Positions 1 through 26,393 of a stretch of 28,511 nucleotides of DNA are shown here, in pieces. How positions within the stretch are numbered: position 1 is the first letter of the stretch; each line of letters opens with the position of its first letter. The stretch comes from a virus: IMG/VR virus record IMGVR_UViG_3300037245_000662, positions 1-28,511 of that record; one strand, written 5' to 3'. Below the pieces are notes generated by a model. The model did no database searches, was not told the origin of the DNA, and saw only the letters and a program-made list of their open reading frames with translations. A program made the translations under genes and the position numbers.

Positions 1-169
1 TAGGTCCATAATTCTCCATCTCCTTATAAGCTTTTGATTTTTTGTAGTTACCGGTTTTCACCAGTTTGTTCGTTTGAACCAATCCAATGCTCTGACACTC
101 GGGACACCTTCTGATCATAAGGCAATCCTCGATCCTTTTTCTACACTTCGGGCATTTGAACTCGTACAC
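1..169 (-). CDS. Zinc-ribbon protein, GTG start, truncated by window edge
   Basis: About 56 residues are visible and the frame is still open at base 1. The translation starts MYEFKCPKCRKRIEDC and continues to RRCPECQS, so two CxxC pairs (KCPKC and RCPEC) spaced about 18 residues apart make a small zinc ribbon. A basic Lys-rich stretch (NKLVKTGNYKKSKAYK) follows. The GTG at 169 is the first start codon after the TAA of the upstream FmdB-like gene, and an AAGG lies about 7 nt before it. The frame is the same as the upstream gene with only three sense codons between, so translational coupling or readthrough is possible. The function is unknown; a nucleic-acid-binding or regulatory role is a guess based on the ribbon. 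An out-of-frame ATG ORF over the same bases lacks the cysteine pattern. Confidence 0.6.
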   Translation of the reverse strand, partial: MYEFKCPKCRKRIEDCLMIRRCPECQSIGLVQTNKLVKTGNYKKSKAYKEMENYGP

Positions 170-178
170 ATCGGAGCC

Positions 179-454
179 TTATTCCTTCGGTGGCTTGACG
201 TGTTCGTTTGTACCACCTTTGTTTGAGGTGAATGAATAGCCATGGGACAGCTCGCCTTCAATCCTGCCAGGCGTGTCGATGTACTTAAGGCCATACCCAT
301 TGGCGGCTCTGAGTCCAACAATCTTAAAGCAGGGGTGTCCTACTCCCTTGATGGTCTGCGCTCCACACTTCTCGCAGGGGATATCCTCTTCATACTTATG
401 GAGTCCCTCGAATGTGTGCTTGCAGGCCGGACAGTTGTAATCATACAATGGCAT
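179..454 (-). CDS. FmdB-like zinc-ribbon protein
   Basis: A 91-aa protein with the N-terminus MPLYDYNCPACKHTFE, typical of the FmdB/CxxC_CXXC_SSSS regulatory family (normally MPxYxYxCxxCgxxFE). A second pair, CEKCG, lies near residue 27-31, and together the two CxxC knuckles should bind one zinc. The remainder is Gly-rich and polar with no recognisable domain. A strong AAAGGAGAG site precedes the ATG. It is the first gene after the promoter copy at 581-608 and its hairpin leader, so it likely begins a transcript of its own behind the terminase gene. FmdB-type ribbons occur in many phages with no proven role; transcriptional regulation is the usual proposal. Confidence 0.8.
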   Translation of the reverse strand: MPLYDYNCPACKHTFEGLHKYEEDIPCEKCGAQTIKGVGHPCFKIVGLRAANGYGLKYIDTPGRIEGELSHGYSFTSNKGGTNEHVKPPKE

Positions 455-497
455 TTGCTCTCTCCTTTCTTGGTTTGGTGAAATCGGCCGGTACAGT

Positions 498-571
498 ATA
501 CTAAAGGAAACTTTTAGTATGATAAAGTGTTATTAAGGTAATTAACTAAGAGTATACTTATAGTATATACT
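498..571 (-). promoter_or_regulatory. AT-rich hairpin leader upstream of the FmdB-like gene
   Basis: The 167-nt gap between terminase and the FmdB-like gene holds no ORF. Besides the promoter-like repeat it contains two inverted repeats. One is an 8-bp stem, ATACTAAA/TTTAGTAT (498-505 with 513-520, 7-nt loop). The other is an AT-only element with arms AGTATA/TATACT (551-556 with 566-571). Both lie in the predicted transcribed leader between the promoter and the ribosome-binding site. They could be RNA processing or stability elements. No U-tract follows either stem, so they do not look like terminators. Confidence 0.4.
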
Positions 572-580
572 TTCGGCTTG

Positions 581-608
581 CTTATACTGAACCCCAGGCC
601 CGATAGAA
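581..608 (-). promoter_or_regulatory. Putative phage RNA polymerase promoter, copy 2
   Basis: These 28 bp are identical to 25603-25630, and similarity continues downstream (an AAGCC then AAAGTAT in both). On the minus strand the core reads GCCTGGGGTTCAGTATA followed by AG. The TCAGTATA end resembles the CTCACTATA end of T7-class promoters, so the 17-nt core could span about -17 to -1. It lies between the terminase stop and the FmdB-like gene, with no ORF across it, pointing left with the genes. The repeat is seen directly; the promoter role is inferred from position, orientation and partial similarity. The cognate polymerase is not in this window. Confidence 0.6.
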
Positions 609-620
609 CTACTAATGATA

Positions 621-2291
621 TCAACGGTTTAGCATACGATTGCTCCCTCGCTGAGTTTGAGCATCAGCACCAAACACATGATTTCTGAATACTTCCAGTT
701 CCTTATCGACTTCTCGCTTCTCCCAATCCTTCTTGCTCCGGATAGCATCCTGTTCTAATGCATCCAACCAGTACCTGACTAAAATAGCCAAGGCATCCAA
801 TCTATCATCATGTTTGAGCGCACCTTTCTCTTTGGTCAAACGTGTCATTTGATAGAACAAAGAACGGTTAAGGGACTCTTCGAGAAGCTCGATGTCATCG
901 TCGATCACCTTGCGGTCAAATATTAACCTATGTTGGTTAAGCGGCGGTTCGAGCGTGTCGATTATTCGGAGTTCCTTTTGGGTGTTATGCCGTATCTCTT
1001 CGACCTCACACTTGTGGTCTCTGAATAATACGGGTGTGAACAGCTTTTCAAACATCCCATCACCAAAGTTGGATTCAATGGTGATGTGATTTACCTTGAA
1101 TTTCTTAGCGATTAAGGCAAGTTGCTTCAGAGTATCATCATCGTAGCCGCCGGTGAACCCACCGACTTCCGGAATCCAGATGTTACCATGGAGCATGTAG
1201 CCGACAGCATAGGACGTCTCATCTGTCCCACGGCCGGATGGATCGATTGCCATTGCGCTTCCGGTGTACGGTAGCCAATTCTCCTTATCATAATACATTG
1301 GGGCATACCAACGGTCTCCGGCGAAACCAACATTACGGGCGTCGAGCTGTTGTTCTTTACTTGAGCCGTATGTGATTGCCACAGGAGCCTTGTCCGGATT
1401 AATAGAAGTCACAATGATATCAGCAGTCTTGAGGGGATACCTTTCAGCATCACTTAAAGAAGTATCGAGCATAAACTGCAGGGCAAACCCTGAGCGGCCA
1501 TAAGCGGCTTCTCTTTCAGATAGATCAACATTATCAAATCGCTTGGGGTCTGTGGCTTCGCCAACGCTCGCAGGATCGTCGATCACCCTTTGGGCTATAC
1601 TCGGGGATAGCTGACCATGATATATGCCAACCTCGTCGTGCTTGGGGTATCTGGCCGGCCAAATGCGCCTGGCGTATCCCTTCTCTGCGAGCTTGTTATA
1701 AACTGACTCTTCAGTCTGAGGTGTGCCAAGGTAAGTTATCTTTCCGGTCTCGGGCATGATAATGGCTTCGAACTCCATTACCGTCTTCATGAGCTTATCT
1801 CTGAGGTCCTGAGTTGCAGAGTTATTCGGGATTTCGATATCATCAGGAATAACCTCGTCAGCTCGGGAACCTGTCATCATGCCAAAGACACCCACCGATT
1901 TACAAGATGGAGCATGGGCGGCTCTGGCGGGTCCTAATTCAAATGCCACCTTAGATTCTCGATCATCTCGACCAGGAATCAGGTGACGTAGGGCCGGAAA
2001 CTCTTTGATAATCCTTAAAGTAAAGGTTGAGAAATCGTCTGCACGTTGCTTAGATGCTGAGACAACCAGGATTTTATAATCCGGATTCTTCAGCCAGGCC
2101 CATGTGCAATAGGCACTTGTGATCCAACTCTTTCCTACCCCTCGGAACGCTTGGATAATTTTCCGTCGGGGTCCATTCTGGAGATATTCGGCTATCTCAT
2201 ATTGAACGGGAGTCGGTTCAGGTAGTCCGAGCTGATCCCATGCATAATAGAGATAGTTCCGAAAATCCCTCTTCATTTCAGATACATGCAT
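621..2291 (-). CDS. terL: Terminase large subunit (T7 gp19-like)
   Basis: A 556-aa DNA-packaging motor ATPase and nuclease that pumps concatemeric DNA through the portal. Walker A is FRGVGKSWIT (about residues 49-58), a Walker B-like EVIPDD lies near 146-151, and the coupling motif YLGTPQT near 187-193. The C-terminal nuclease shows IDPSGRGTDE (Asp350), ESNFGDGMF (Glu406) and HDDRLDAL (Asp495, 496 and 499), the acidic residues of the RNase H-like metal site. Length and motifs match T7 gp19 closely along the whole protein (for example SRADEVIPDD, LQFML, EKGALKHDDRLDAL). The start at 2291 has AAGGA six bases upstream; Met6 is a weaker alternative. It follows the candidate small subunit by 3 bases. 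Confidence 0.97.
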   Translation of the reverse strand: MHVSEMKRDFRNYLYYAWDQLGLPEPTPVQYEIAEYLQNGPRRKIIQAFRGVGKSWITSAYCTWAWLKNPDYKILVVSASKQRADDFSTFTLRIIKEFPALRHLIPGRDDRESKVAFELGPARAAHAPSCKSVGVFGMMTGSRADEVIPDDIEIPNNSATQDLRDKLMKTVMEFEAIIMPETGKITYLGTPQTEESVYNKLAEKGYARRIWPARYPKHDEVGIYHGQLSPSIAQRVIDDPASVGEATDPKRFDNVDLSEREAAYGRSGFALQFMLDTSLSDAERYPLKTADIIVTSINPDKAPVAITYGSSKEQQLDARNVGFAGDRWYAPMYYDKENWLPYTGSAMAIDPSGRGTDETSYAVGYMLHGNIWIPEVGGFTGGYDDDTLKQLALIAKKFKVNHITIESNFGDGMFEKLFTPVLFRDHKCEVEEIRHNTQKELRIIDTLEPPLNQHRLIFDRKVIDDDIELLEESLNRSLFYQMTRLTKEKGALKHDDRLDALAILVRYWLDALEQDAIRSKKDWEKREVDKELEVFRNHVFGADAQTQRGSNRMLNR

Positions 2292-2294
2292 GTA

Positions 2295-2516
2295 TTATCC
2301 TTTCGATGGGAATGGCACAACTGAAGACTCTTCTTCGGTCATATCCCCAAGATCATTTGATTTGCCAGGCTTGATAAGAACAATGAGCCTGCCGTTGTCG
2401 AGCAGAATCTTACGCATTTCCGCGACGATCGCGGCCGGTGTCTCTTCGTCAATTCGCTTTAGACAGTCGATGTATTTCTTTTCAATGGTGTCGATGTCTT
2501 TATTTGTCAGCATCAT
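2295..2516 (-). CDS. Candidate terminase small subunit (T7 gp18-like)
   Basis: A 73-aa acidic-to-neutral protein immediately before the large terminase. It has an N-terminal helical part (TNKDIDTIEKKYIDCL), then PAAIVAEMRKILLDNG, and ends in an acidic linker and VPFPSKG. Small T7/cyanopodovirus-type terminase subunits have this size and the pattern of a helical hairpin, an ARKxLxDNG-like segment and a PF-containing tail. The start at 2516 (MMLTNK) has AGGAG at ideal distance; a longer upstream reading lacks a site. It overlaps the preceding gene by 17 nt. Known role of the family: recognising viral DNA and starting packaging. Assignment rests on position and pattern only, so it could be another small packaging-region protein. 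Confidence 0.6.
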   Translation of the reverse strand: MMLTNKDIDTIEKKYIDCLKRIDEETPAAIVAEMRKILLDNGRLIVLIKPGKSNDLGDMTEEESSVVPFPSKG

Positions 2517-2790
2517 AATCGCTCCTGTCTTCCGGATCACTATTCGCATAGTCACCCTGTTTTCTGATTATATCCCAGGTCTTAGGATGTCGGTTTGCCA
2601 TGAGTACACTTATATTGATTTCTCTTCCGAACGGCAGATTGGCCCCATGAATTTTCTCCTTCACCCAATCAGGGTAATCATCAATTAAATTAGATAGTTT
2701 CTTAAGGTTTTTCCAGAAGGATCGATCAGGCCACCTTCGGATAACCTTGTGCCATGCGGTCTTAAATTCAGGCCAGGTTTTTATTGGCAT
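2500..2790 (-). CDS. Hypothetical 96-aa protein in the packaging region
   Basis: The start is taken at MPIKTWPEF (2790), overlapping the end of the preceding 40-aa membrane ORF by 10 nt. The upstream ribosome site is weak (GGTGG), consistent with translational coupling. An alternative GTG at 2871 would give 123 aa but would overlap most of the membrane ORF. The protein is rich in Trp and in Lys/Arg (HKVIRRWPDRSFWKNLKKL), then ends in an acidic tail (NSDPEDRSDYDADK). It has no membrane segment and no motif I recognise. Its place next to the terminase genes suggests packaging or lysis support, but nothing in the sequence proves it. Confidence 0.65.
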   Translation of the reverse strand: MPIKTWPEFKTAWHKVIRRWPDRSFWKNLKKLSNLIDDYPDWVKEKIHGANLPFGREINISVLMANRHPKTWDIIRKQGDYANSDPEDRSDYDADK

Positions 2791-2903
2791 GACACCACCA
2801 TCACTATCGCCGTTGCGATAAGCATTAAGGATGCGGATATGCCGATCGTCCAGAAACTCCGGATGATCCACTTGGCAATCAGTTCTAAAATAGAGTCTTC
2901 CAT
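2781..2903 (-). CDS. 40-aa single-span membrane protein
   Basis: This ORF starts with ATG at 2903, overlapping the preceding TAA by one base (TAATG), with AAGGGG eight bases upstream. The translation is a short charged N-terminus (MEDSILELIAKW) followed by one long hydrophobic segment, about residues 17-38 (FWTIGISASLMLIATAIVMV), and ends VSCQ. It lies where T7 carries its small holin (after the fibers, before gp18), so a holin, antiholin or lysis accessory role is plausible, but no family signature is visible. It overlaps out of frame with the longer GTG reading of the next gene. Confidence 0.55.
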   Translation of the reverse strand: MEDSILELIAKWIIRSFWTIGISASLMLIATAIVMVVSCQ

Positions 2904-3118
2904 TATGACAACCCCTTGTATGCCGCCACGGCCGCCGCTATGAAAGCCGGAACTCCAATGCCTAAGCGTTTAAACCAGGACACATTTGTTTCCAGTTTGG
3001 TAATACGGGATGGAAAGTCGTTGTCCTCTTCCTTTTCAATATGAGAGTCCAAGGCTTGCTTGATGTGCTTGGTGCGCTCATCCAATCGTGCTAAAATCAC
3101 TTCCGCTGAATCTGACAT
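2903..3118 (-). CDS. Coiled-coil plus C-terminal membrane anchor protein, XhlA/holin-like
   Basis: A 71-aa protein. Residues 1-45 are highly charged and helical (ERTKHIKQALDSHIEKEEDND), and residues about 48-68 form one hydrophobic helix (WFKRLGIGVPAFIAAAVAAY), with a short KGLS tail. This layout resembles haemolysin XhlA-type phage proteins that work with holins. Its position directly after the fiber genes matches the T7 gp17.5 holin slot. AAGGAG lies at normal distance before the ATG. A separate 3TM holin is encoded at 27294-27725, so this may be a second holin, an accessory, or a membrane-tethered virion or lysis factor. The fold call is by pattern only. Confidence 0.7.
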   Translation of the reverse strand: MSDSAEVILARLDERTKHIKQALDSHIEKEEDNDFPSRITKLETNVSWFKRLGIGVPAFIAAAVAAYKGLS

Positions 3119-3137
3119 GATAAGCTCCTTAAAGTAT

Positions 3138-3176
3138 ATTATAGTGAGCCTTATTTTACTTTAGGCCCACTATAAT
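3138..3176 (-). promoter_or_regulatory. 13-bp hairpin with T7-promoter-like arm
   Basis: In the 153-nt gap between the SPRY/lectin-like gene and the XhlA-like gene, 3138-3150 pairs with 3164-3176 around a 13-nt loop. As minus-strand RNA all 13 pairs form (one is G-U); as plus-strand RNA that position is an A-C mismatch, so the structure favours the minus transcript. The distal arm on the minus strand (3140-3156) reads AAATAAGGCTCACTATA, 14 of 17 matches to the T7 promoter core, but the next base is A rather than G. It could be a terminator without a U-tract, a processing hairpin, or a promoter relic. The rest of the gap is AT-rich with nothing recognisable. Confidence 0.45.
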
Positions 3177-3271
3177 GCACATTTGGTTAATTCGTTAATA
3201 AGTGATTTACTACATATATGATGTACCAAATCGTATTTTTACAACCTATTCGTAGTAAAACGTGTTTCTTT

Positions 3272-4612
3272 TTAGCCGACATTCACGGAGTTCAACGCTT
3301 TGTATCCCGCCGGTATGGCGTAGGCGAATCCACGTTGACCGAAATCCCACAAGAAATACTCAGGCGCACTATCACTTGCTGAATGGCCCCCGAAACGCCA
3401 CGTCTCGCTACCAAAGTTTAAGCCCGAGAAGGCGGTCCCAAGATTGGAATTATTCTTGTAGAAGGTTAGCGTTCCCGCATCAGCATTAGCTAAAACGCCA
3501 ATAATGGTATTGATACCAAAGCCGGAAGTATAACCCGCATTAGGCCAATAAATGTTGCCATTCATGGTATAGAGCATCTTGTCACCAGTAGATGACCCCC
3601 ATATCCCAACCATTTCCCTATAATTATTAGTCAGAATCTTGCACTCAGCATACCACTTGCCGGACGAAGGGATTGCCATAGTTGTGCTATGTCTACCTTC
3701 ATTGCCACTCGACGTCTGAACGTACAAATTACCTTCTGAGTAGGTCCAGGCCGGTTGGTAGTCACGGGATGCTGTGTTATAATTATTGGTTGGTGAGTCA
3801 AGCATCTGATGATCGGTTCCAAATTGATATTCGCCAAAGTCATTGCTTTTGCCCGACTCATCATCACCTAAACTTGAAGCATTAGCGAAATCTAAATAGA
3901 ACGCTTGGTCCCTATCGTAACTTCCTGAATATCGCTTTGGGACCCAATCAGGACCGTCAAATTTTCCAAATCTATCAAGCGTTTCCAATTGTTGGGGGAG
4001 ATAATGGAAGTCGGCCATATAACCGTCTATCCATTGCGCATTGCCCCACCCAATATACTTAACAAAAGATGCATGCCCTAAATTCACGCCGGCCCAACCT
4101 GAAGTATAGGTTTGGCTTGCGCCCCATGCAGTTACCCGCACACCATCAATCCAAAGCTGTTGTCTGTCTTCTGCAACTGCTTCATTGGTATTGATGTATA
4201 TATAATAATGATGCCACTCTTCCAGGTCTGTGTAAGTTGCTGAGGTTACTTTATTCATATAATAACCACCAGTATACTTTTGCGCGAACTGAATCACATT
4301 GTTATCATTCATCCGGCAAAACCAGAAGTTGTCGACGTCGTAGTAACTAAGCAACCAGGTCCGATAAAGATTAAGCTTCGACATTTTATGCCAAAATGAA
4401 ATTGAACCACTAACACCGTAACCGTCAGCACCGTGGGCGCCTTTAGACATATAGGTTCCTGACACGCTACTAAACATTGCGCTTTGACTGATCTCATAAG
4501 GCACAAGCTCAACATCCAAACCGTTTATCTTCGCCAAGGAAGTGGTATCGACTCCACTAAACGTAGCCATATCGGCGATATCAATCCCGTTCCATTTTGA
4601 TATGGTAGCCAT
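3272..4612 (-). CDS. Lectin/LamG plus SPRY-like tail protein, receptor-binding candidate
   Basis: A 446-aa protein. After a short N-terminus, residues about 40-220 look like a concanavalin A/LamG jelly roll (GSISFWHKMSK, LEEWHHYYIYI, QQLWIDGVRV, IDGYMADFHYL). Residues about 290-446 look like an SPRY-type sandwich common in phage adhesins (SSGKWYAECKI, GVLANADAGTLTFYKN, and the end WDFGQRGFAYAIPAGYKALN). The gene starts one base inside the stop of the long fiber (TAATG), so the two are coupled and probably act in one adsorption apparatus. No T7 anchor domain is present, so it would have to attach through another fiber protein. Glycan binding is inferred from fold type; the ligand is unknown. 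Confidence 0.75.
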   Translation of the reverse strand: MATISKWNGIDIADMATFSGVDTTSLAKINGLDVELVPYEISQSAMFSSVSGTYMSKGAHGADGYGVSGSISFWHKMSKLNLYRTWLLSYYDVDNFWFCRMNDNNVIQFAQKYTGGYYMNKVTSATYTDLEEWHHYYIYINTNEAVAEDRQQLWIDGVRVTAWGASQTYTSGWAGVNLGHASFVKYIGWGNAQWIDGYMADFHYLPQQLETLDRFGKFDGPDWVPKRYSGSYDRDQAFYLDFANASSLGDDESGKSNDFGEYQFGTDHQMLDSPTNNYNTASRDYQPAWTYSEGNLYVQTSSGNEGRHSTTMAIPSSGKWYAECKILTNNYREMVGIWGSSTGDKMLYTMNGNIYWPNAGYTSGFGINTIIGVLANADAGTLTFYKNNSNLGTAFSGLNFGSETWRFGGHSASDSAPEYFLWDFGQRGFAYAIPAGYKALNSVNVG

Positions 4613-7600
4613 TATAATACCTCCGCGAAGTCAGGTGAAGGATCGACGTATATTATTTTTGCATGTATTGCGTAGCCAATCACCTTAACAATATCACCAC
4701 TTCCAGACGGCGCGGTTGACCCAATGCCACCTGGGGTGACGTGATTGTACACAATATCACCGGCCGTAAATCCCCATAAGTCATTACGAACAAACCCTTT
4801 AAGCAGAATCTTCTTCGCCCCAGTTCCCGTTGCAAGGCTTATTCCTACCATACGAGAGGTTGCAAGGGCGTCAGCATCGGCTAAATCCCAATGACCGTCT
4901 GCGGCTAAGCACATCAAAGAGCCAACCCAACCGGCGGTATCTACCGTAACGGGAATAATAAGCCCCGATCCTGTTACATCCGCAAGAGTAAGTCCATCTT
5001 CCAGTTCAATACTTCCGGCCATAACGAGAGAGTCCAGTTCCAAGTCACCACCAGTATGGGAGTCAATGTCATGAGACGCCGCATGTCGCGCGGCACTATT
5101 CTCGGAGATACCGGCATGATCATGAAGCGTGGTATCACCACCACCTGTAAGGGTTTCAAGGTTTGCACCCGTCGCGTCCGAAACATCTGAATGGGAAGCA
5201 ATGTTATGGCTCTGGGCATGTCGCGCGGCTGAGTTCTCCGATATACCGGCATGGTCATGGAGAGTTGTGTCTCCACCACCCGTCAGGGTATTCAACTCTG
5301 TGCCGGTTGCTTCGGTATCATGGTCTACAATATCATGACTCTCAGCATGTCGAGCGGCTGAGTTCTCCGATATTCCATCATGGTCATGAAGCGTGGTGTC
5401 TCCACCATCAATCAGGTCGGTAAGACTATATAGTTCGAACCGGCTATTTGCTTCACTCCATTTCAGGATTTCATTGTCATCCGGATCAGCATCAAATAAG
5501 ACATCTTCATTCTCCATCACTTTAAGCGCAGGCTCGGTATGTACCAAAATCATTCCAGTATCAGCATGTTTAACAATACAATGCCCAAGCATTACTATAA
5601 AGTCCGGCGCGGTAGGCCGTGTGTCAGTCATCGTGCCAGGAGTTGCGGGATCAAGCCAAACGTCAGCACCTTCTGTAAGATGGTCTGTATCAATACCCCG
5701 CACAAGGCCATGGAAGGTGACGTAGCCATTTGAGTTATCAGCAATGTCTTCTGTGGTCATACCTTCAACATGATGCTTTGCTTCCTCTGTTGCATCTGCT
5801 TTAGCAATCAACGGTCGATTAGCTGAAGAGCCGGCAAAATAAATCGGCGTACCATCCGGAATTAGTGAACCCGTAATGTTACGAACTTTGACTACATGCT
5901 CTTGACCAACCTGAAGATTAACACTTCCACCAGGTAGACCATATTCAAGGGTTCCATCTTCGGCGTTCCATTGCAGTTTACCTTCAGCTTGACCGTCTGA
6001 ATACTCAGTATTAAACTGAACAAAGTCGGCGTCACCAAAGGCGGCGGCTACAATACCGGCGGCTTTAGCGGAGTGATGAAGCGCGGAGTATTCCCCTGTT
6101 TCAACTTCAACATCCTCGGCTTCCTGCGCCCAATCTTCTGCTTTAGCCTGAGCAGTTTCAGCGGATGCTTGTGCAGATTCTGCTAAACCTTGAGCTGTCT
6201 CAGCATCATCTTCTGAAGACTGAGCATTGGTTTCGGCAGTTTCGGCATCTCCCTGAGCGGTCACAGCAAGGTCTTTCGCTACAACTGATGCGTCTCGAGC
6301 GTCTTCTGATAAGCCCTGAGCAGTCTCAGCACCGGCCACAGCGGCTTCGGATAGGTCTCGAGCGTCTTCTGATAAGCCCTGAGCTGTCTCGGCGTTTGTC
6401 TCAGCGGTCTCCGCGCCTGTCCTCGCGGTTTCTGCAAGGATACGATCGGCATCAGCATCGGCGGCATCTACACCGGTCAATACAACATCGGCCGCCGTAT
6501 CGATTGCATCCTGATTGGTGATTGCAACATCATCGCCGGTCAGCCCCACGTCTATACCGGTCAATACAACATCGGCATGTGTGGTCACCACGTCAGCATT
6601 GGTTAACGCCACGTCATCTTCGGCTCCTTGCTCGGCAGTCTCAGCGGCGGCCTGAGCGGCTTCGGCTAATCCCTGTGCAGTTTCAGCATCATCTTCTGAA
6701 GACTGAGCGTTGGTCTCTGCGGTCTCGGCGTTTGTCTTTGCAGTTTCGGCCAGGACCCTTTGGGCATTGGCTTTGGCACTATGATGGAGCGCGGAATACT
6801 GTCCGGCTTCCACTTCGGTGTCTTCAATTTCCTGCGCCCAATCTTCTGCTTTAGCCTGAGCTGTCTCTGCATTGGTCTCGGCAGTTTCAGCGGCTGTTTG
6901 GGCTGTCTCGGCATTGGTCTCGGCAGTTTCAGCGGCTGTTTGGGCTGTCTCGGCCAGGCCCTGCGCTGTCTCAGCATTAGTTTCAGCAGTCTCGGCGTTG
7001 GTCTGAGCTGTCTCTGCGGCGGTCTGTGCAGTTTCAGCTAAGCCTTGAGCGGTCTCGGAAGCGGCTTGTGCATCTTCAGATAATCCCTGTGCAATCTCAG
7101 AAGCCACGGCGGCGGCAACGGCTTGATTCTTAGCAGTCACGGCATTAGCTTCTGCCACCTCAGCGCCACTTTCGGCACTTTCAGCGGATGCTTGTGCAGA
7201 TTCTGCTAAACCTTGAGCGGTCTCTGCCAAACCCTGAGCCGTCTGAGCATCTTGCTCTGAGGACAGCGCGTTGGTTTCAGCGTTTTCAGCGGCGGCCTGA
7301 GCATCTTCTGCTAAGCCTTGGGCTATGACTGATGCGTCTTTGGCGTCTTCCGATAAACCTTGTGCGGTCTCAGAAGCGGCCTGAGCAGTTTCGGATAGGC
7401 CCTGAGCAGTTTCAGCTAAACCTTGAGCTGTCTCTGCGGCGGCCTGAGCGGCTTCGGCGGCGGTTTGTGCCGTTTCACATGCGTCCACAAACGGGGATAC
7501 TGTCCCTACCAAAGATTGCAAATTGACTGCATCGGTAGCATCTATCGCATCAGCAAGGTTTATGATTCGTTTGCTGTTGGCGTCGTATGCGCCTTCATCA

Positions 7601-7935
7601 AAATCATAATTCAAAGAATTTAACACAACATCAAAGGCTTCCTGACTGATAAAGAACATCTGATTTGAATCTTTGTCGAGAGTAGCTTCGTCCAATAATG
7701 CGGCGTTGGTAAAGTCAACCACTCTCGCGTCCCTGGCGGTTGTACGCCGGACAATAATTGCGTCTCCATTATCCGGAACCGCATCCAATAGGACCGTAGC
7801 GTCGGTCGGCCAGGTAAAGGTAACCTCTTCGCCTTCGACAGTTACGGTCACATCGTCCTTTTTAATGTAAAGAAAGGGAACAGAATAAACATCTGTACTG
7901 CCGTCCCCCTCGTACTCTGTAAATGAATACGCCAT
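4612..7935 (-). CDS. Long tail fiber with T7 gp17-type anchor and giant heptad coiled coil
   Basis: A 1107-aa protein. Residues 1-115 match the T7 gp17 N-terminal anchor that docks on the tail (YSFTEYEGDGSTDVYSVPF, VVDFTNAALLDEATLDKDSNQ). Residues about 155-620 are dozens of seven-residue repeats of the AETAQGL type, a long parallel coiled coil, interrupted twice by a WAQExED...YSALHHSAKA segment. A beta-rich domain follows (about 680-800), then three His-rich repeats (about 840-960), and a C-terminal beta domain ending GDIVKVIGYAIHAKIIYVDPS. T7 gp17 has 553 residues, so this is about twice as long. The leader AAAAGGAGAATAAATA is the same as that of the preceding short fiber. The role is host recognition, as a trimer by family precedent. 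Confidence 0.93.
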   Translation of the reverse strand: MAYSFTEYEGDGSTDVYSVPFLYIKKDDVTVTVEGEEVTFTWPTDATVLLDAVPDNGDAIIVRRTTARDARVVDFTNAALLDEATLDKDSNQMFFISQEAFDVVLNSLNYDFDEGAYDANSKRIINLADAIDATDAVNLQSLVGTVSPFVDACETAQTAAEAAQAAAETAQGLAETAQGLSETAQAASETAQGLSEDAKDASVIAQGLAEDAQAAAENAETNALSSEQDAQTAQGLAETAQGLAESAQASAESAESGAEVAEANAVTAKNQAVAAAVASEIAQGLSEDAQAASETAQGLAETAQTAAETAQTNAETAETNAETAQGLAETAQTAAETAETNAETAQTAAETAETNAETAQAKAEDWAQEIEDTEVEAGQYSALHHSAKANAQRVLAETAKTNAETAETNAQSSEDDAETAQGLAEAAQAAAETAEQGAEDDVALTNADVVTTHADVVLTGIDVGLTGDDVAITNQDAIDTAADVVLTGVDAADADADRILAETARTGAETAETNAETAQGLSEDARDLSEAAVAGAETAQGLSEDARDASVVAKDLAVTAQGDAETAETNAQSSEDDAETAQGLAESAQASAETAQAKAEDWAQEAEDVEVETGEYSALHHSAKAAGIVAAAFGDADFVQFNTEYSDGQAEGKLQWNAEDGTLEYGLPGGSVNLQVGQEHVVKVRNITGSLIPDGTPIYFAGSSANRPLIAKADATEEAKHHVEGMTTEDIADNSNGYVTFHGLVRGIDTDHLTEGADVWLDPATPGTMTDTRPTAPDFIVMLGHCIVKHADTGMILVHTEPALKVMENEDVLFDADPDDNEILKWSEANSRFELYSLTDLIDGGDTTLHDHDGISENSAARHAESHDIVDHDTEATGTELNTLTGGGDTTLHDHAGISENSAARHAQSHNIASHSDVSDATGANLETLTGGGDTTLHDHAGISENSAARHAASHDIDSHTGGDLELDSLVMAGSIELEDGLTLADVTGSGLIIPVTVDTAGWVGSLMCLAADGHWDLADADALATSRMVGISLATGTGAKKILLKGFVRNDLWGFTAGDIVYNHVTPGGIGSTAPSGSGDIVKVIGYAIHAKIIYVDPSPDFAEVL
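5050..5412 (-). repeat. Three in-frame His-rich repeats in the long fiber
   Basis: Three copies of a 43-45-residue unit containing GGDTTLHDHxGISENSAARHA followed by SH(D/N)I, with diverged linkers. The DNA copies are strongly similar as well, for example the TCCACCACC and GCGGC(T/A)GAGTTCTC segments. HxH and H-x2-3-SH patterns recur at a fixed spacing, so a trimer would place rings of histidines along its axis. Metal binding is inferred by analogy with HxH motifs in other phage fibers and is not shown here. Confidence 0.85.
6869..6952 (-). repeat. Perfect 42-bp tandem duplication in coiled-coil region
   Basis: Bases 6869-6910 and 6911-6952 are identical. The unit encodes 14 residues, exactly two heptads of the AET-rich coiled coil, so the duplication lengthens the rod without changing its register. 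Perfect identity suggests a recent slippage or recombination event. The wider region 6110-7470 is made of degenerate versions of the same 21-bp heptad unit. Confidence 0.9.
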
Positions 7936-7949
7936 TATTTATTCTCCTT

Positions 7950-9080
7950 TTAATCAGTCATCCAAACTTTAAAGTATCGACAGTACGCGTTTCCTGCATC
8001 ACCATCATTCTTACGATGTTGCAAGTCAAATTCGTAAATAACACCAATCGTCAAACCCAAAGCGACAATACTTTCTGACCCGTTGAAGGCAGTATAGCTA
8101 TTATTGGCTGTGGTTTGGACAGCATATTGAGTCCCGTTTATCATGATTCTGGTAGCGGATGCCGTATCGTTTGTGCGATGCTGTTGGTTAGACCAGTTAA
8201 GAGTATCCTGCCCGTTGTATTGGAAGTGCATTCTATCTCCAATAGAAATCCAGGCTTCTGTACCTTCAATGTGTTCTATTAAATGTGCATCCCAATGATT
8301 AGCAATCCGAACCTCGTCCGTTGGTATTCCGGAGTCTTCAAGGTCCCCATTCTCATCCATCTGAAGCAAGTTACCGTCAACCGGAGTGACAACCAGATTG
8401 GCTTTATCGGACAAATCTGCCTGGGCTTTAGCACTATGATGAAGCGCTGAGTACTGACCTGGGTGGCCGGTGATTGCATCGTCCTCAGGATTCTCGGCCC
8501 ACTCTTCGGCCAATGATTCCCATCCCTCGGCGTTTCCTTCGGCGGTCTCGGCGTTTCCCTGAGCTGTTTCGGCTAAGCCTTGTGCATCTTCTGCTAAACC
8601 CTGAGCTGTCTCGGCGGCGGTTTGTGCAGTCTGAGCATCGGTCAGGTATGTACTGATCTGATCAATGCGTACTGCATCATCAGCATCCACACCAGGCGCA
8701 AGGCCGATGATCCGAGAACCATCAACATCATAAGCAATTTCGCCGGCGTCATAAGGGATACCGGCAATTGACAAGTCGAACGCTTCCTGAGCCAGAAAGA
8801 ATATCTGATTGGAATCCTTATCCAAAGTCTCTTCGTCCAAAAGTGAAGCTGAAGTGAAGTCAACCTCACGGGTTTCTCTGTCAGTCGTTCTCACAACTAT
8901 GACAACCGTCCCATTACCAGGTGCGACATCAGCTTCGACGGTGGCCGTGGTGGGCCAACTGAAGTCAACTGATTCACCATCGACGGTTAAGTCTACATCG
9001 GCTTTCTTGATATACGGGAAGGTGACAGTAAATATGACTGTTGAACCATCACCTTCATATTCATCCCATGAGTACGGCAT
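7950..9080 (-). CDS. Second, shorter tail fiber with T7 gp17-type anchor
   Basis: A 376-aa protein. Residues 1-115 are a clear paralog of the anchor in the next gene (MPYSWDEYEGDGST, REVDFTSASLLDEETLDKDSNQ). Residues about 147-190 hold a few AETAQGL heptads, followed by WAENPEDD and a YSALHHSAKA junction segment. A unique C-terminal domain runs from about 270 to the end (HIEGTEAWISIGDRMHFQYN to YCRYFKVWMTD), probably a small beta head that binds a receptor or caps the rod. The start has a strong AAAAGGAG site identical to that of the next fiber. The two fibers would compete for, or share, the tail attachment sites. Confidence 0.9.
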   Translation of the reverse strand: MPYSWDEYEGDGSTVIFTVTFPYIKKADVDLTVDGESVDFSWPTTATVEADVAPGNGTVVIVVRTTDRETREVDFTSASLLDEETLDKDSNQIFFLAQEAFDLSIAGIPYDAGEIAYDVDGSRIIGLAPGVDADDAVRIDQISTYLTDAQTAQTAAETAQGLAEDAQGLAETAQGNAETAEGNAEGWESLAEEWAENPEDDAITGHPGQYSALHHSAKAQADLSDKANLVVTPVDGNLLQMDENGDLEDSGIPTDEVRIANHWDAHLIEHIEGTEAWISIGDRMHFQYNGQDTLNWSNQQHRTNDTASATRIMINGTQYAVQTTANNSYTAFNGSESIVALGLTIGVIYEFDLQHRKNDGDAGNAYCRYFKVWMTD

Positions 9081-9083
9081 TAT

Positions 9084-12000
9084 TTATTCTCCTTTTATAT
9101 TGAACTGATGATAGAGTGCTTTGACTGCGTTGTTCTCGGCCGTCGCAAACACAATGTTGTAGGCATCTCGCTTTGCCCTTTCGATGATATCTTCTTGGAC
9201 TTCCGTACTGCCTGAGATGTAAATACCCCTGGCGGCTCCCCGCATATTATTCACAATGCCTTTCAGCATTTCAGCTTTGAGGGGATGCGATTGAATACTC
9301 TGATATTCCTGGGAGTTAATTACTTCTGCCAGGATTTCCCTTATGGGCATCTGAGCAACGATGTCATTCAGCTTGGCGTACTCTTCCGGCTCCAGTTGTA
9401 CACCACCAACCTTGTCAGAGATTTTCTTCATGTTCGCCTGTACGTTAGCCATTTCTACCATGACATCATCGTCCATCGATCGAACCTTAACCACATAACC
9501 AAGTCTCGGGTCACGTTGAATTTCATGACCATAAACATTATGACGCTTGGCTATCAGTCTTTTTGGATCAATCTTTTTCCAAAGGATATCTGATACCTTA
9601 TTCAACTCGCGGATGTGAGTGTCATTGAAGTTCTGCTGAAACCACTCGAAGCCGGTAGTCCCTGGAAAGAACTTCTCCAGTTGTTTGATCGCCTGCTTAG
9701 AAGGATTTGTCCGGTCTGCCTGCAGGATAAGGTTAAGTATATCGCCTACTCCTGTCATCCAGGTTTTGTTAAGCACCGGCTCAGACATCGTCAGTATTAG
9801 GTTTGTGAGCAAGTCCAGTTCCATATCCTTGGGTACATTTTCGTTATACTTATAGATGTCTTGCAGAAGCCCTATGTCAGCGGCCGCTCCTAAGAGCATG
9901 CCAAAAGGATCGAAGCGATCATACGAGTACCATTTGTCACCGTACCTGAAAGAATACGGTTGAATATCGGCTTGATTCCAGGCATCCTGCTGTCCTGGGG
10001 GAACTCTACCAACAATCAACTGCGCGTCATAGAGTTGCGCCGCGCCTAACATTATGGCACTTCCGGTTGTAATTCGACCAATGGCTTCGTATCTTTTGAC
10101 TCCACCGGCCGCCCAATCAGCCCAGAACTTATTACCTAAAAGACCCAAAGCGCTATGCTGTCCGGCGTACTTGGTGATGTTGACTGCAATCTTAAAGAAC
10201 GGGATTGCGCCAATCTTAACCACCATACCGTAATTGGTATTCAAAGCTTCGTTCATCTTTTTGGTGATAGTGCCAGTTCCAAAATCATCTTGGAAGGTTA
10301 GGTATCTCGCGCGGTTAAGTGCTTCATAATGAAGATCAGCAGGGACGTCTTCCATAACTGTTTTCGCCCACAGCTTAAAATCGTCACCCTTCTTACCAAG
10401 CTTGCGACCTTCTCTAAAAACAAGAGAGTTTAGCTCAGAGAAATATCCGATGTTCTTGAATATCTCATCGCCGGCGGTCAGGGCATGGAACGGTAACTGA
10501 ATGGTCCTGATAATAGGCATCGAAAGAATCTTAGGCAAATGAAGTGCTTCTGCCATTGCTTCCATACCACCACCAAGCTGACCTTCCAACTTAACCATCT
10601 GATCTAATTGACCTTCGCCAGTTGAAAAGGCTTTGAATACTCGGCCAAACTCCACGTTCTTCCAGTTGGCTTTAGTGGTGTCACTCGCCCATTTTGCTAA
10701 ACCTTTAATTTTAAAACACGTTGAAATGCCTGTGCCTATTCCTTTATAGAACTCCACCAGTTCAAGCATACGGCCCATGTCACCGCTAATGATTGCATCG
10801 GCGGTCACGGCGAAATGCCTAAGCATCCCATCATAGAGCTGAGTGGACATGTTGCCAATTAAATTGACAAGCTGAGTACCAGGATTCCAAAGTAAATTCG
10901 ACTGCATAAATTCAAGAGTGCCGGCCAACCATTTGTTTCTTCCGGTGTACCGAGCAATCTTAAGTTTGTCTCCATGTTTCTTGGCCTTGGCAAATGAGTT
11001 GACAATGTTCCGGACTTCATGCGCGCGGTCAGCCGCGATATCTGAGATAGCTTCTGTGGGAAGACTATCAAAATCAAAGCGAGTTGCCATCCAATCCAGA
11101 TTATACTGACCAAGTGTCCTGCCGATATCGGAACGAATCCCGAGAACGTGGGACTGCATCTCTTGGAGAACTTTGAGATGCTCGAGGACTTTAAGCTCAT
11201 CTGTGAAAGATGTGGCCGTCTTCGGGTCCACGATTTGCTTAGCCATAGCCCCGACTTCATCGGCGTACTGAACAAAGTACTGGTCGAAGGCTCGGACAAC
11301 TTCATCCATCTTACCAGTTGCGACGCCGAACTTCTCCATCTCGCTAAGCATCTGAATCTGCATGGTTTTCTCAGTCTTCTGAGCGGCTCTTGCAAATCCT
11401 TTTAGGACATTTTCGGAGCCTTTCTGAGTTTCTTTGCGAGATTTCCGGAAGGGTTTGCCCTGTTTGTCGTACCTAACTGGACCCCCTCTGGCGATATCGA
11501 TCATATCTTCGGAGTTTTGATAGACGTGTTTTGCCACCATAGCGGTATTTCCACCCGCTTCTTCCATTAATCGGGCTATTGAACCGGCCTGACTACCGAC
11601 TTCTACTGCTTCACCGGCAATATCGGCCTTGATATCTTTGAGTGCATCGAAGGCAGACGTGATATTTTTCAAGGTAACTTCCGGTCGGATAGCTTCTTCA
11701 GGGACAGCTCGGCCGGCTTCGATGGTTTCGTCCGGCACTCCGGCTTCTTGAAAGCGCTCGACGGTGGTTTTAACTTTCTTAGGCTTGGCTCTCTGTTCTT
11801 TGAGACTCATGAATAGTCCAAACTTTTCAGTCACTTCGTCAGCAACCTTCATGCTATCCATCATGCTCTTTTCCCAGATAAACTTCTTTAACAATTTGGA
11901 GCCAAACAGGATGCCGTCGATCGCCAGGCCAAGTCCTGCACCTTCCAGTACGTTCTTGAACCTTTCGATGTATTCCGGATTGTCAGGATTAGTCTGAAGG

Positions 12001-22950: not shown

Positions 22951-23136
22951 TTATTTGTTTGCTTCTTCGATTGCTTTCTGTTGTCTCTTCCGACGATCAG
23001 CTTCAGCCTTGATGTGATCTGTATTGACTGCGCCTTTCTTCTTCGGAGTTTTCTTTTTCTTCTTTATGGCAAGCTTCGCCATAATTCTTTTGCCAATGGC
23101 CTTCAGTCCATCAAGCCAATTTATTGATTTAGCCAT
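22951..23136 (-). CDS. Small Lys-rich protein between portal and scaffold
   Basis: A 61-aa protein starting one base inside the portal stop (TAATG). It is extremely basic, with a KKKKKTPKKKG run near residues 25-36 and RRKRQQKAIEEANK at the end. No known domain. Such composition suggests nucleic-acid contact or RNA binding, perhaps in the head, but this is speculation from charge alone. The coupling to portal makes it a real gene candidate. Confidence 0.7.
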   Translation of the reverse strand: MAKSINWLDGLKAIGKRIMAKLAIKKKKKTPKKKGAVNTDHIKAEADRRKRQQKAIEEANK

Positions 23137-24671
23137 TATTGTCCTCCCGTTTGATCGCCGCCGGCGGCTTGATCAGCTACCGAGCCTGCTAATTGAGGAG
23201 CTATCTTTTCCATCATAGCCGCCTTCTGTTGGGCCTGAGCGGCCGCTTCTACTTCTTCTCTTGAAGTAATAAGACCGGACTTGTCGATACCTAAAGCAAC
23301 ACAGACTCTGGCAATGTAGTCATCCACCTGGAGCCACGTCTGAAGCGCTTGTTCGCCAATCGGTTTAATGTGTTCTATCAATGACTCAAGTTTCTGCAAG
23401 TCATGTCCACGTCCTAATGCTTCGAAGCCGGTCACGATCGTCGGTGCAACCTTGGCAGGAAGTTTAGGAAGCATGGTGAGAATACGAACTGCTAAAGGAT
23501 ACTGCAGTTCCTGACTTAGCACAGAGTAGACACCACCTAAGGCGTCTTCTAATTCCTGAGCCATTAAACGAATTTCAGTTGCAGTCACTCGCTCGGCCTG
23601 CCTTTGTACTGAGTCATTCAGCAGAAAGGAATTAGCTAAGCGTCTTTCAATTCGGAGTGATTCATCATGGGCAACTTTAAAGTCTGCATACTTCTCAGCC
23701 TGCAGAACCGTAACGTCTTCCTTGCGGCCATTCGCAAAGCCACCATTGGGAGTCTTCATCAAGTCCTTCTGATTAGTAGTCCCATTAGTTGAAATAAGGA
23801 ATATGACCTTAGCCATTGCCGCCGCGCCTTCAAGTAAAGCCTGAGATAAACCATCCAGAGACATGAAGTCTCCCAGATGCTCTTCAACGTGACCTCTACC
23901 ATAATTCTCTCCTTCTGCTAAAGTCCAGGTTAAAGGAAGCAATGGAAAGTTATCTTCTTTGTAGACACCCATGGTATCGGGAACTTCTTGGCCTAAGATT
24001 TCCTGGTGAACGTGCCACCTATCTCCGGAGCGCTTGGCATGAGTGAAGAGTTCAATCTCTTCGTCTTCTGAATCTTTCTTTTCGTCCTTGGTGTAGTCAA
24101 TCCCTTCAGGTATTTCTTCGGGACTAAGTACTTCTCGAATGATTATCTCAAGCGGTGAACCTTCGGGACCCCTGCGGATAATATATTTATCCAACCGGTG
24201 AACCTTGAGTCTACCCTCAGCAGGCTTGCCGCTTTTGGTTGGCATTTCTATGAGTGCATTGCCGGTGGATATGAGTAAGCGCAGGACCCTGAACATCTGG
24301 ACCCTGTATGCATTTCTCTCTACCAATTTAACACCCATCTTCTCATGAGTTGCTAAGGCTTCTTCAATTTTCGTTTTGAAAGCCTGGTCACCCATCTGTT
24401 CTTTAAGCTCGAGCAACACTTCCGGATCAACATCCAGGCGATAGAACGCGCTATTGGGTGGCATCAAAGTAAGCAGGAGTTTAGCACTCAGATTATTAAC
24501 CGCTCTTGCACCTAAGCCCTGATATGGGGTCTTAAGTTGATCAGTCTCTTTAAGGTCTCGCGGTGGCAACAGATGAGGAATGGTCAGGGACGTACACACC
24601 CGACAGCGGTCCAACAGAGTGGACCTTTTTGAATCCAGTTTTTCCCATCTACTTTTTGCGATGCCTTCCAT
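23136..24671 (-). CDS. Portal / head-tail connector (T7 gp8-like)
   Basis: A 511-aa protein; T7 gp8 has 536. Landmarks follow T7 gp8 closely: CTSLTIPHLLPP, TPYQGLGARAVNNLSAKLLLTLMPP, ERNAYRVQMFRVLRLLISTGNAL, EGENYGRGHVEEHLGDFMSL, DFKVAHDESLRIERRLANSF, and NDSVQRQAERVTATEIR followed by LGGVYSVLSQELQYPL. The C-terminus is Gln/Ala/Gly-rich, as in other T7-class portals. It forms the dodecameric ring through which terminase pumps DNA and to which the adaptor binds. The start has AAGGAT upstream of 24671. Gene order portal, scaffold, capsid matches the family. Confidence 0.96.
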   Translation of the reverse strand: MEGIAKSRWEKLDSKRSTLLDRCRVCTSLTIPHLLPPRDLKETDQLKTPYQGLGARAVNNLSAKLLLTLMPPNSAFYRLDVDPEVLLELKEQMGDQAFKTKIEEALATHEKMGVKLVERNAYRVQMFRVLRLLISTGNALIEMPTKSGKPAEGRLKVHRLDKYIIRRGPEGSPLEIIIREVLSPEEIPEGIDYTKDEKKDSEDEEIELFTHAKRSGDRWHVHQEILGQEVPDTMGVYKEDNFPLLPLTWTLAEGENYGRGHVEEHLGDFMSLDGLSQALLEGAAAMAKVIFLISTNGTTNQKDLMKTPNGGFANGRKEDVTVLQAEKYADFKVAHDESLRIERRLANSFLLNDSVQRQAERVTATEIRLMAQELEDALGGVYSVLSQELQYPLAVRILTMLPKLPAKVAPTIVTGFEALGRGHDLQKLESLIEHIKPIGEQALQTWLQVDDYIARVCVALGIDKSGLITSREEVEAAAQAQQKAAMMEKIAPQLAGSVADQAAGGDQTGGQ

Positions 24672-24697: not shown

Positions 24698-25372
24698 TTA
24701 GATGTTTAAGCCGGAGCCAGATAGGTTCATGACAAGACTTGATATGCCGGCCTTCAGCTTAGCTCGTCCACCACGTTCTTCTCTCTCCTGACTTTGAACT
24801 TTCATCTGAGCGAAGCGCTCACGATGTACCATCCTGCGCTGTGATTGAGTGGTGCGTTCTCCGATGTTAGCCATTTTGTTGTAGGCTCCAATCCATTTAG
24901 CCATGCTCGACCGCCGTTGGTGGCCCCTAATGGCCTGGATATCTGACTGATACTTCTCGGTAGCGGCGGCAAAATCGGACTGCTGAACCTTAGTCGAATA
25001 GGGGACGTATCCACCACCACTCGGCTTAACGCCGGAAGTGGTTGTGGTTTGCAGAACAGGAGCCTTAAGGTTGGCCTTCCGGACAGCCCTATCGCCGGCC
25101 TTGGTCGAACCAAAGGTCGCATCCCAAAGGTATTTATCGGTTTTGTGCATACCCTTGACGTTAAAATCGCCCCTCGGAGCATAGTTTTTCTTGAGTTGCT
25201 TGAGGTTTGTCTGAATGGTACGGTCCCAATCTTCACCTGAGGTGTCTCCGGAAGCCAGGATCGTTTGGTAATCCTCTTCCCGCCGTCCTTCCTTGGCAGT
25301 TCTCTGAGGGCCGGCGCTGAATTTTTCCGCAACCCATGCGCCATATCTATTTGATAATGTTCCGTATCCCAT
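24698..25372 (-). CDS. Hypothetical virion-associated protein upstream of portal
   Basis: A 224-aa basic protein starting one base inside the preceding stop (TAATG). The N-terminus is MGYGTLSNRYGAWVAEKFSAG. The middle is Thr/Ser/Gly-rich (VLQTTTTSGVKPSGGGYVPYS) and the C-terminal half helical and Arg/Gln-rich (TTQSQRRMVHRERFAQMKVQ). No enzyme motif or membrane segment is visible. Its place just before portal corresponds to T7 gp6.7/gp7.3, which are minor virion or tail-assembly proteins, though it is over twice their length. A minor structural or ejected role is therefore reasonable but unproven. Confidence 0.75.
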   Translation of the reverse strand: MGYGTLSNRYGAWVAEKFSAGPQRTAKEGRREEDYQTILASGDTSGEDWDRTIQTNLKQLKKNYAPRGDFNVKGMHKTDKYLWDATFGSTKAGDRAVRKANLKAPVLQTTTTSGVKPSGGGYVPYSTKVQQSDFAAATEKYQSDIQAIRGHQRRSSMAKWIGAYNKMANIGERTTQSQRRMVHRERFAQMKVQSQEREERGGRAKLKAGISSLVMNLSGSGLNI

Positions 25373-25566
25373 TATTGTTCTCCCTTTAAATTCATGTCTT
25401 CGGTAGCCGTTAGCTTGGCAATTAATGTATTGACCACTCGCCGCTCACCGGCTTTCATCCATACTTCCCTCTCGCTGTCTTCAGGATTCGGACATCGATC
25501 AGGATACATCACGTCGAGCCACTTAATTAGCTCGTTGGTTTCGTTAGGTATGGTTGTGTAATCCAT
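25372..25566 (-). CDS. Hypothetical 64-aa protein, first gene of the late operon
   Basis: The start at 25566 has AGAGGAGAA upstream. The protein is MDYTTIPNETNELIKWLDVMYPDRCPNP and onward, soluble, mixed charge, with no motif recognised. It is the first ORF after the promoter-like repeat at 25603-25630, and is coupled to the next gene by a TAATG overlap. Position resembles the small T7 gp6.5-6.7 ORFs. Confidence 0.75.
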   Translation of the reverse strand: MDYTTIPNETNELIKWLDVMYPDRCPNPEDSEREVWMKAGERRVVNTLIAKLTATEDMNLKGEQ

Positions 25567-25602
25567 AGGTTTCTCCTCTCTTAAGGTAATACTTTATGGC
25601 TT

Positions 25603-25630
25603 CTTATACTGAACCCCAGGCCCGATAGAA
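25603..25630 (-). promoter_or_regulatory. Putative phage RNA polymerase promoter, copy 1
   Basis: Identical over 28 bp to 581-608, on the minus strand, core GCCTGGGGTTCAGTATA followed by AG. It lies immediately after an intrinsic terminator (25634-25669) and 37 bases before the first late gene. This terminator-then-promoter order is what a switch between transcription units should look like. The T7-class interpretation comes from the TCAGTATA end and the T7-like gene set; the assignment is inferred. Confidence 0.65.
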
Positions 25631-25633
25631 TAT

Positions 25634-25669
25634 CGAAAAAATAGAGAGGGTTACGAGTCCTCTCTATTT
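25634..25669 (-). terminator. Intrinsic terminator ending the pre-structural block
   Basis: An 11-bp perfect stem AAATAGAGAGG/CCTCTCTATTT (25659-25669 with 25639-25649), 9-nt loop. On the minus strand the stem end runs into TTTTTT, then CGATA. It starts 3 bases after the stop of the 42-aa membrane gene. A convincing rho-independent terminator for the leftward transcript. Confidence 0.93.
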
Positions 25670-25672
25670 GTG

Positions 25673-25801
25673 TTACTTTGGGAAAATATTGGTGGTTTGG
25701 CGGGTCCATTTCTCAGGAGCCAGGTATAAAACAAGGAAAGCCAGGGCCAATAAGGATAGACCCACGGCGAATCCGGTAACCATTTTTATATGTGACCACA
25801 T
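25673..25801 (-). CDS. 42-aa single-span membrane protein
   Basis: The start at 25801 has an excellent TAGGAGAATAAT site. The translation begins MWSHIKMVTGF, then a hydrophobic span (about residues 7-28, MVTGFAVGLSLLALAFLVLYL), then a short polar tail APEKWTRQTTNIFPK. It is the last gene before the terminator. It has one transmembrane helix with no lipobox and no known family signature. It may be a lysis accessory or a membrane factor of the takeover phase. Confidence 0.7.
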   Translation of the reverse strand: MWSHIKMVTGFAVGLSLLALAFLVLYLAPEKWTRQTTNIFPK

Positions 25802-25816
25802 ATTATTCTCCTAACC

Positions 25817-25972
25817 TCATTCATCACACTCAGGCTCAACATTGGCACTCTTTGTAATCAGGCCATGCTCAGCCTTAATGTGGTTCATGATCAGGTGGGC
25901 TTGCTGAAGTCTCTGCATCCCTTCCAGTATCAGTTGTTCAATCGCTCCCCATCTTGCTAAGTCTAAATCCAT
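25817..25972 (-). CDS. Hypothetical 51-aa protein
   Basis: The start at 25972 is preceded by AGGGGGT. The protein is MDLDLARWGAIEQLILEGMQ and onward, a predicted amphipathic helical hairpin with many Gln/His/Leu, ending ANVEPECDE. No motif is recognised. It lies 15 bases upstream of the 42-aa membrane gene and downstream of a 9-bp hairpin. Confidence 0.6.
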   Translation of the reverse strand: MDLDLARWGAIEQLILEGMQRLQQAHLIMNHIKAEHGLITKSANVEPECDE

Positions 25973-25991
25973 ACATCAGTACCCCCTGCCA

Positions 25992-26015
25992 GGGATCGAG
26001 TGGACGCTCGATCCC
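25992..26015 (-). promoter_or_regulatory. 9-bp perfect hairpin before the 51-aa gene
   Basis: GGGATCGAG (25992-26000) and CTCGATCCC (26007-26015) form a perfect stem with a 6-nt loop in the 79-nt gap after the zinc-ribbon gene. No U-tract follows on either strand, so it is not a standard terminator. An RNA processing or stability site is possible. Confidence 0.5.
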
Positions 26016-26051
26016 CATGTTCACGTTATTGGTACGCCAAAAAAGTGTACA

Positions 26052-26393
26052 TTATTTCTTGCTGAATGGACTCTTCTTTGACGGCTTCTCATCAGTTTTC
26101 CCCATCGCGGCGGCTATCTGTTTGGCAACCTCAGCTTTAACGGCGGCATCAAACGTGGCCTTCTCATCGGCCTTGGCCTGCGCCGCAGTCTCGGCGTCAG
26201 CCTTCCGGTTGTCAGCAATTTCCTTAATGCCTGCTTCGGTTTCACATTTGGGACAGCCTTTGTTACCCTCTTCTTCCCAATAGCCATACCGGCGGCCACA
26301 TGTGGGGCAATCGGTCTTGATCAGGTTGTTCCCCTTGCCAGGCGGTAGGGTTGAAGGTACTGACATTCCTTTCGTTGGTTTAGCATCTGCCAT
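26052..26393 (-). CDS. Zinc-ribbon protein with Ala/Lys-rich tail
   Basis: A 113-aa protein. After a flexible N-terminus it has CPTCGRRYGYW (near residue 29) and CPKC (near 47), a two-knuckle zinc ribbon with about 14 residues between the pairs. A helical Ala/Lys/Glu stretch follows (residues about 60-100), then a basic end PSKKSPFSKK. The start overlaps the exonuclease stop by one base. A nucleic-acid-binding partner of the exonuclease is a reasonable guess; T7 has no obvious counterpart. Confidence 0.75.
   Translation of the reverse strand: MADAKPTKGMSVPSTLPPGKGNNLIKTDCPTCGRRYGYWEEEGNKGCPKCETEAGIKEIADNRKADAETAAQAKADEKATFDAAVKAEVAKQIAAAMGKTDEKPSKKSPFSKK

Follow-up and report, generated by a model that had tools for sequence, protein, structure and literature searches.

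Two perfect intergenic repeats in an uncultured T7-like phage fragment are very probably its late promoters

The DNA analysed here (the window) is an entire IMG/VR record of 28,511 bases, classed as linear. Comparison with PHROG families gave matches for the large terminase subunit (terL), internal virion proteins, tail fibres, tail tubular proteins, capsid, scaffold, portal, exonuclease, holin and endolysin. The virion genes and the terminase follow a T7-like order on a single strand. All convincing genes lie on the minus strand, like every window feature given below. A search for RNA polymerase (RNAP) gave no match in the window, nor in any control genome, and the window is probably a fragment of an autographivirus (T7-like) without its left, RNA-polymerase arm. 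The terL gene (621-2291; PHROG 38, E = 1.2e-119) is the last of its operon, while the exonuclease, which resembles T7 gp6 (26393-27130; PHROG 107, E = 2.7e-69), and the portal or head-tail connector (23136-24671; PHROG 449, E = 1.8e-159) border a second region of interest. On the portal side of that region, an ORF supported by tblastn encodes a 64-aa protein (25372-25566), homologues of which sit just upstream of portal in two relatives, G001 and G003, according to the same type of search. A pattern scan found a strong intrinsic terminator, AAATAGAGAGG...CCTCTCTATTTTTT, at 25639-25669 (hairpin of -13.3 kcal/mol, z -3.6), which sets the late operon apart from the genes upstream. Upstream of it are two short unannotated ORFs, 25673-25801 and 25817-25972, encoding, respectively, 42 aa with a single probable membrane span and 51 aa. 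Past terL, ORF translation gives a 91-aa cysteine-rich, zinc-ribbon-like protein (179-454). Within the tail genes, a 1107-aa tail-fibre-like protein contains a long array of imperfect 21-nt repeats (6133-7485), read as heptads of the AETAQ/GLAETAQ type.

A 28-mer, TTCTATCGGGCCTGGGGTTCAGTATAAG, whose upstream part is TTCTATCGG, occurs in two mismatch-free copies on the minus strand, at 581-608 (copy 1) and 25603-25630 (copy 2). An earlier note on this DNA had reported the 28-bp identity, and its coordinates and strand proved exact; the motif search that it had proposed as a check, run here on the window, returned these two copies on the same strand and nothing else with 11 mismatches or fewer, the next-closest site having 12. 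Among 100 shuffles, none contained even one match to the 28-mer at three or fewer mismatches. Both copies are intergenic and point in the coding direction. Copy 1 starts 12 bp past the terL stop codon (621), inside a 166-bp gap, and the first gene behind it is that of the 91-aa protein; copy 2 lies in the exonuclease-portal gap, beginning a few bases after the hairpin terminator and ending 36 bp short of the ATG that opens the 64-aa gene, the first one behind it. This agrees with the earlier description of one copy as lying behind a terminator and the other behind terminase. The additional statement that both gaps are free of genes is right for the promoter's own stretch, which holds no convincing gene, but not for the wider gap 25567-26051, where the two short ORFs are plausible. 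Similarity was also said to run on downstream of the copies, and it does so if one-base gaps are allowed (AAGCAAGCCG-AAAGTAT versus AAG-AAGCCATAAAGTAT); the probable initially transcribed stretches, as read from the sequence, are CAAGCCGAAAGTATATAC after copy 1 (563-580) and AAGCCATAAAGTATTACC after copy 2 (25585-25602). Between copy 1 and the next gene, at 500-566, there are short AT-rich palindromic stretches, GTATATAC, AGTATACT and TACTAAAAG...CTTTAGTA.

No close relative with the same repeat sequence was found in the collections searched. An exact 16-mer of the repeat had no match in IMG/VR, and neither megablast of window positions 1-12000 nor blastn of a 33-mer matched any cultured phage. 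The 14-mer GGGTTCAGTATAAG matched in more than 100 contigs, but these hits look like chance, the best of them extending to just 21 of 28 positions, and we discarded them. Through terL we reached 20 related records, 38-57% identical; a prophage scan of GTDB genomes yielded just two relatives, in Marinobacter similis and in a Binatota MAG, neither of them closer. Since an ungapped core search in the relatives gave background scores only, the promoter sequence itself is not common to them.

The two slots are conserved as promoter positions in LUZ100, in T7 and in about ten relatives. LUZ100, whose terL and portal are 53% and 47% identical to those of the window, has had its start sites mapped by ONT-cappable-seq, and its mapped phage promoters include phi6 in the exonuclease-portal gap and phi8 immediately behind terL (PMC10134795). 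In T7, phi6.5 and phiOR occupy the matching slots, behind exonuclease gene 6 and behind gene 19. To compare the slots within each phage we scored the best ungapped 22-mer common to the 150 nt that directly follow terL and the gap from exonuclease to portal, and also ran a 600-nt version with shuffles. The window scored 22, as did G007 and G010, and LUZ100, RHEph21, TRX32-1 and BB8 each scored 20, with lower values for YIMV22061 and CRP-227 (19), CRP-125 and G004 (18) and G020 (16); background averages were 14.5-17.4 in late-module controls and 13-16 in antisense. G007 had no late-module control, and 0 of 40 shuffles reached its score. Because some late-module controls reach the observed score in CRP-125 (3/60), YIMV22061 (2/60) and CRP-227 (2/60), these three rest also on whole-genome scans; G020 is weak by score, yet a motif scan places the same family in each of its two slots. 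Ten phages besides LUZ100 and T7 (CRP-125, CRP-227, RHEph21, TRX32-1, YIMV22061, BB8, G004, G007, G010 and, by motif scan, G020) thus carry a phage-specific repeat common to both slots, on the coding strand, with promoter sequences that differ from phage to phage. Whole-genome motif scans of the slot-repeat phages gave 3-8 copies each, on the coding strand only and often beside the RNAP gene. Eight relatives (G001, G003, G005, G006, G008, G009, G011 and G019) give no distinct signal in the slot test; one of them, G005, is circularly permuted, so that its portal slot is cut, and inspection shows AAGCTCAGTTATCGGA behind its terL and AAAGCTCAGTTATCGGA before its portal.

Two further observations concern the promoters of the relatives. 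In RHEph21 (L171), TRX32-1 (L174), CRP-125 (L170) and CRP-227 (L175), nearly all early and middle copies have C at +2 (AAGCA, TAGCA, AAGCT), and both late copies, before portal and behind terL, have A or G there; the +2 base is possibly a mark of early or late class in the initial transcribed sequence, comparable to T7 class II/III. In the RNAP-containing region of G001 (oriented coordinates 35919-41374), GTTTACAGGAGTAAACC or a close variant of it occurs six or more times, and this motif has TTACAGGAGTA in common with the promoter of Klebsiella phage KP34, TAATGTTACAGGAGTA (PMC6834552). The shared letters suggest that G001, whose terL is 55% identical to that of the window, has a KP34-type promoter set.

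The repeat could in principle be a functionless duplication, arisen by chance or by recombination, and the fragment shows just two copies, which fits that idea. The shuffles exclude chance for a perfect 28-mer, and one would not expect a neutral duplication to fall exactly in these two slots, with matching pairs in many relatives and with flanks that differ; we consider this explanation extremely improbable. In all likelihood the repeat is instead a pair of late promoters for the own single-subunit RNAP of a T7-like (autographivirus) phage. The earlier note had already proposed phage-RNAP promoters, and the agreement with LUZ100, with its mapped start sites, and with T7 in position, strand, number of copies and synteny of the two slots makes this very probable. 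We accept it mainly on the synteny with relatives; a cognate RNAP, the site of initiation and promoter activity are inferred.

Promoter slots may also hold other cis-acting elements. In T7, processing and replication functions are found near some promoters, and the conserved block of the window exceeds the minimal T7 promoter in length, both of which would suit a site of RNase III processing, a secondary origin of replication or a signal for packaging or concatemer processing. The 28-mer, however, forms no stable hairpin, and its folding, no better than that of shuffles (z -0.07), rules out an RNase III hairpin; there is no reason for a packaging signal between exonuclease and portal, and both slots hold mapped promoters in LUZ100. 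An element of this kind is therefore very unlikely. More unlikely still is a promoter for a host sigma factor or an operator for a phage regulator such as the MarR-type repressors of related temperate phages. Genes for a MarR-like regulator and an integrase do occur in close relatives, and the TATAAG of the repeat is like a -10 box, but on the coding strand neither copy is overlapped by a pair of sigma-70-like hexamers, a -35 box would have to lie at the repeat's upstream end or past it, the repeat is not palindromic, and phage-RNAP promoters fill these slots in the relatives.

Within the phage-promoter reading, the start site can be placed in more than one register. With +1 at the A, the repeat has CAGTATA where the T7 core has CACTATA, a match of 6 in 7. 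The earlier note had observed that the core ends like a T7-class promoter, and this much stands, but the same 6/7 match occurs in 1.5% of random coding-strand 28-mers. A class matrix built from the relatives plus T7, T3 and SP6 ranks the two sites only between 1497 and 6210 of 56,984 positions. That matrix likewise fails for the G010 sites and for one YIMV22061 site. With +1 at the G one base later, GGGGTT aligns with an identical block at equal distance from the G in BB8, and GGTT does so in CRP-125 and CRP-227. The A and this G are the +1 candidates, and other frames have partial precedent. In one (+1 within the GGGG run), TCGGGCCT is shared with the G004 promoter, but the melting region would be GC-rich, with 1/4 AT; in another (TTCTATC|GGG), -17 to -8 is unconserved between the copies, and we rejected both. 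The GGGTT block does differ from T7, T3 and SP6, as had been claimed; its assignment to -12 to -8 is an assumption, because +1 could be the A or the next G.

The unwinding region at -4 to -1 is AT-rich (4/4) in either the A or the G register. At -17 to -13 the repeat is GC-rich (1/5 AT in the natural register), where most relatives are AT-rich and BB8 and G007 have just 2/5 AT; this element is typical rather than universal, and we did not treat it as defining. Perfect conservation extends upstream from the presumed start for about 27 bp, farther than in the relatives. Both points count against the late-promoter reading, as do the low matrix ranks, the absence of the RNAP from the fragment and the failure to find a close relative with this sequence. 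Taken together, the GC-rich stretch and the long block could be read as a T7-class promoter of unusual architecture, with a recognition block reaching to about -27, no AT-rich -17 to -13 element and an RNAP with an altered N-terminal recognition loop, which we regard as unlikely.

On the reading as late promoters, the missing left arm, some 12-15 kb long, would encode the cognate single-subunit RNAP, which would bind the conserved block and then melt the AT-rich GTATAA, with RNA starting at the next A/G or at most one base away. Shielded by the terminator just upstream, copy 2 would start the virion-morphogenesis transcript and serve portal, and copy 1, behind terL, would drive the right-end genes, like T7 phiOR. 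An RNAP with the PF00940 domain is encoded by 19 of the 20 relatives, the exception being a 13.6-kb fragment. In the alignment of these polymerases, Asp at T7 position 748 goes with CC-containing promoters (LUZ100, RHEph21, TRX32-1, YIMV22061) and Lys748/Tyr758 with GGTT promoters (CRP-125, CRP-227, BB8); G001, G003 and G020 also have Lys748, with promoters that are other or unassigned, and the sample behind the correlation is small and phylogenetically clumped. For the missing polymerase the correlation offers a prediction that can be tested, not a result: Lys748 and Tyr758, if GGTT is the block recognised. The earlier note had taken the block to imply, if correctly read, a distinct recognition loop; judged by these sequences, a GG(T)T block is not unprecedented, as BB8, CRP-125 and CRP-227 have it together with specificity loops of the Lys748/Tyr758 type.

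The window therefore very probably contains the late-promoter pair of an uncultured autographivirus, with a sequence absent from the collections searched. The kind of promoter is already known and diverse in sequence, and the relatives examined carry their own versions. The pair adds one more orthogonal-looking promoter sequence to the diverse autographivirus set, and may supply synthetic biology with a further RNAP-promoter pair. It also gives a rule for fragments that lack the RNAP gene, in which a comparison of the terL-downstream and exonuclease-portal gaps can point to the phage's own promoter.

Among known systems, LUZ100 phi6/phi8, AATTACCACACAGTTCTGGA, with start sites mapped (PMC10134795), resembles the window pair in its slots and strand, in its two copies flanking the virion module and in being a perfect or near-perfect repeat within the phage, and, with +1 at the A, the two share CAGT at -7 to -4. 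LUZ100 differs in having ACCACA in place of GGGGTT and an AT-rich -17 to -13, and in an extra promoter, phi7, before the capsid gene, for which we found no counterpart in the window. T7 phi6.5/phiOR (core TAATACGACTCACTATAG) share the slots and the near-match to CACTATA, but T7 has four more late promoters in between (phi9, phi10, phi13 and phi17), a different upstream recognition sequence and an AT-rich -17 to -13. The promoter of the Marinobacter similis prophage (L168, which matches G004 behind terL), AATAAAGTCGGGCCTAAGGGG, lies in the same slots and has the 8-mer TCGGGCCT in common with the 28-mer, although in a different frame; it differs in its CTAAGG start region and in several more early copies. 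That of Limnohabitans phage YIMV22061, AATAACCCCCACTATTAGA, again in the same slots, has the same extra A before the G (CACTATTAG, with CACTAT-T-A-G spacing, against CAGTATAAG in the window) but CCCCC where the window has GGGGTT. Finally, the promoters of Bordetella phage BB8 and Roseobacter phages CRP-125/CRP-227, TGTGGGGTTGCACAATAGGA and AATTAGGTTGCACCATAGGG, occur in 4-5 copies and are known from complete genomes; their core is GCACAATA/GCACCATA against CAGTATAA in the window, BB8 is, like the window, AT-poor at -17 to -13, and all share with it the same slots and a GG(G)GTT block followed by a G eight bases later.
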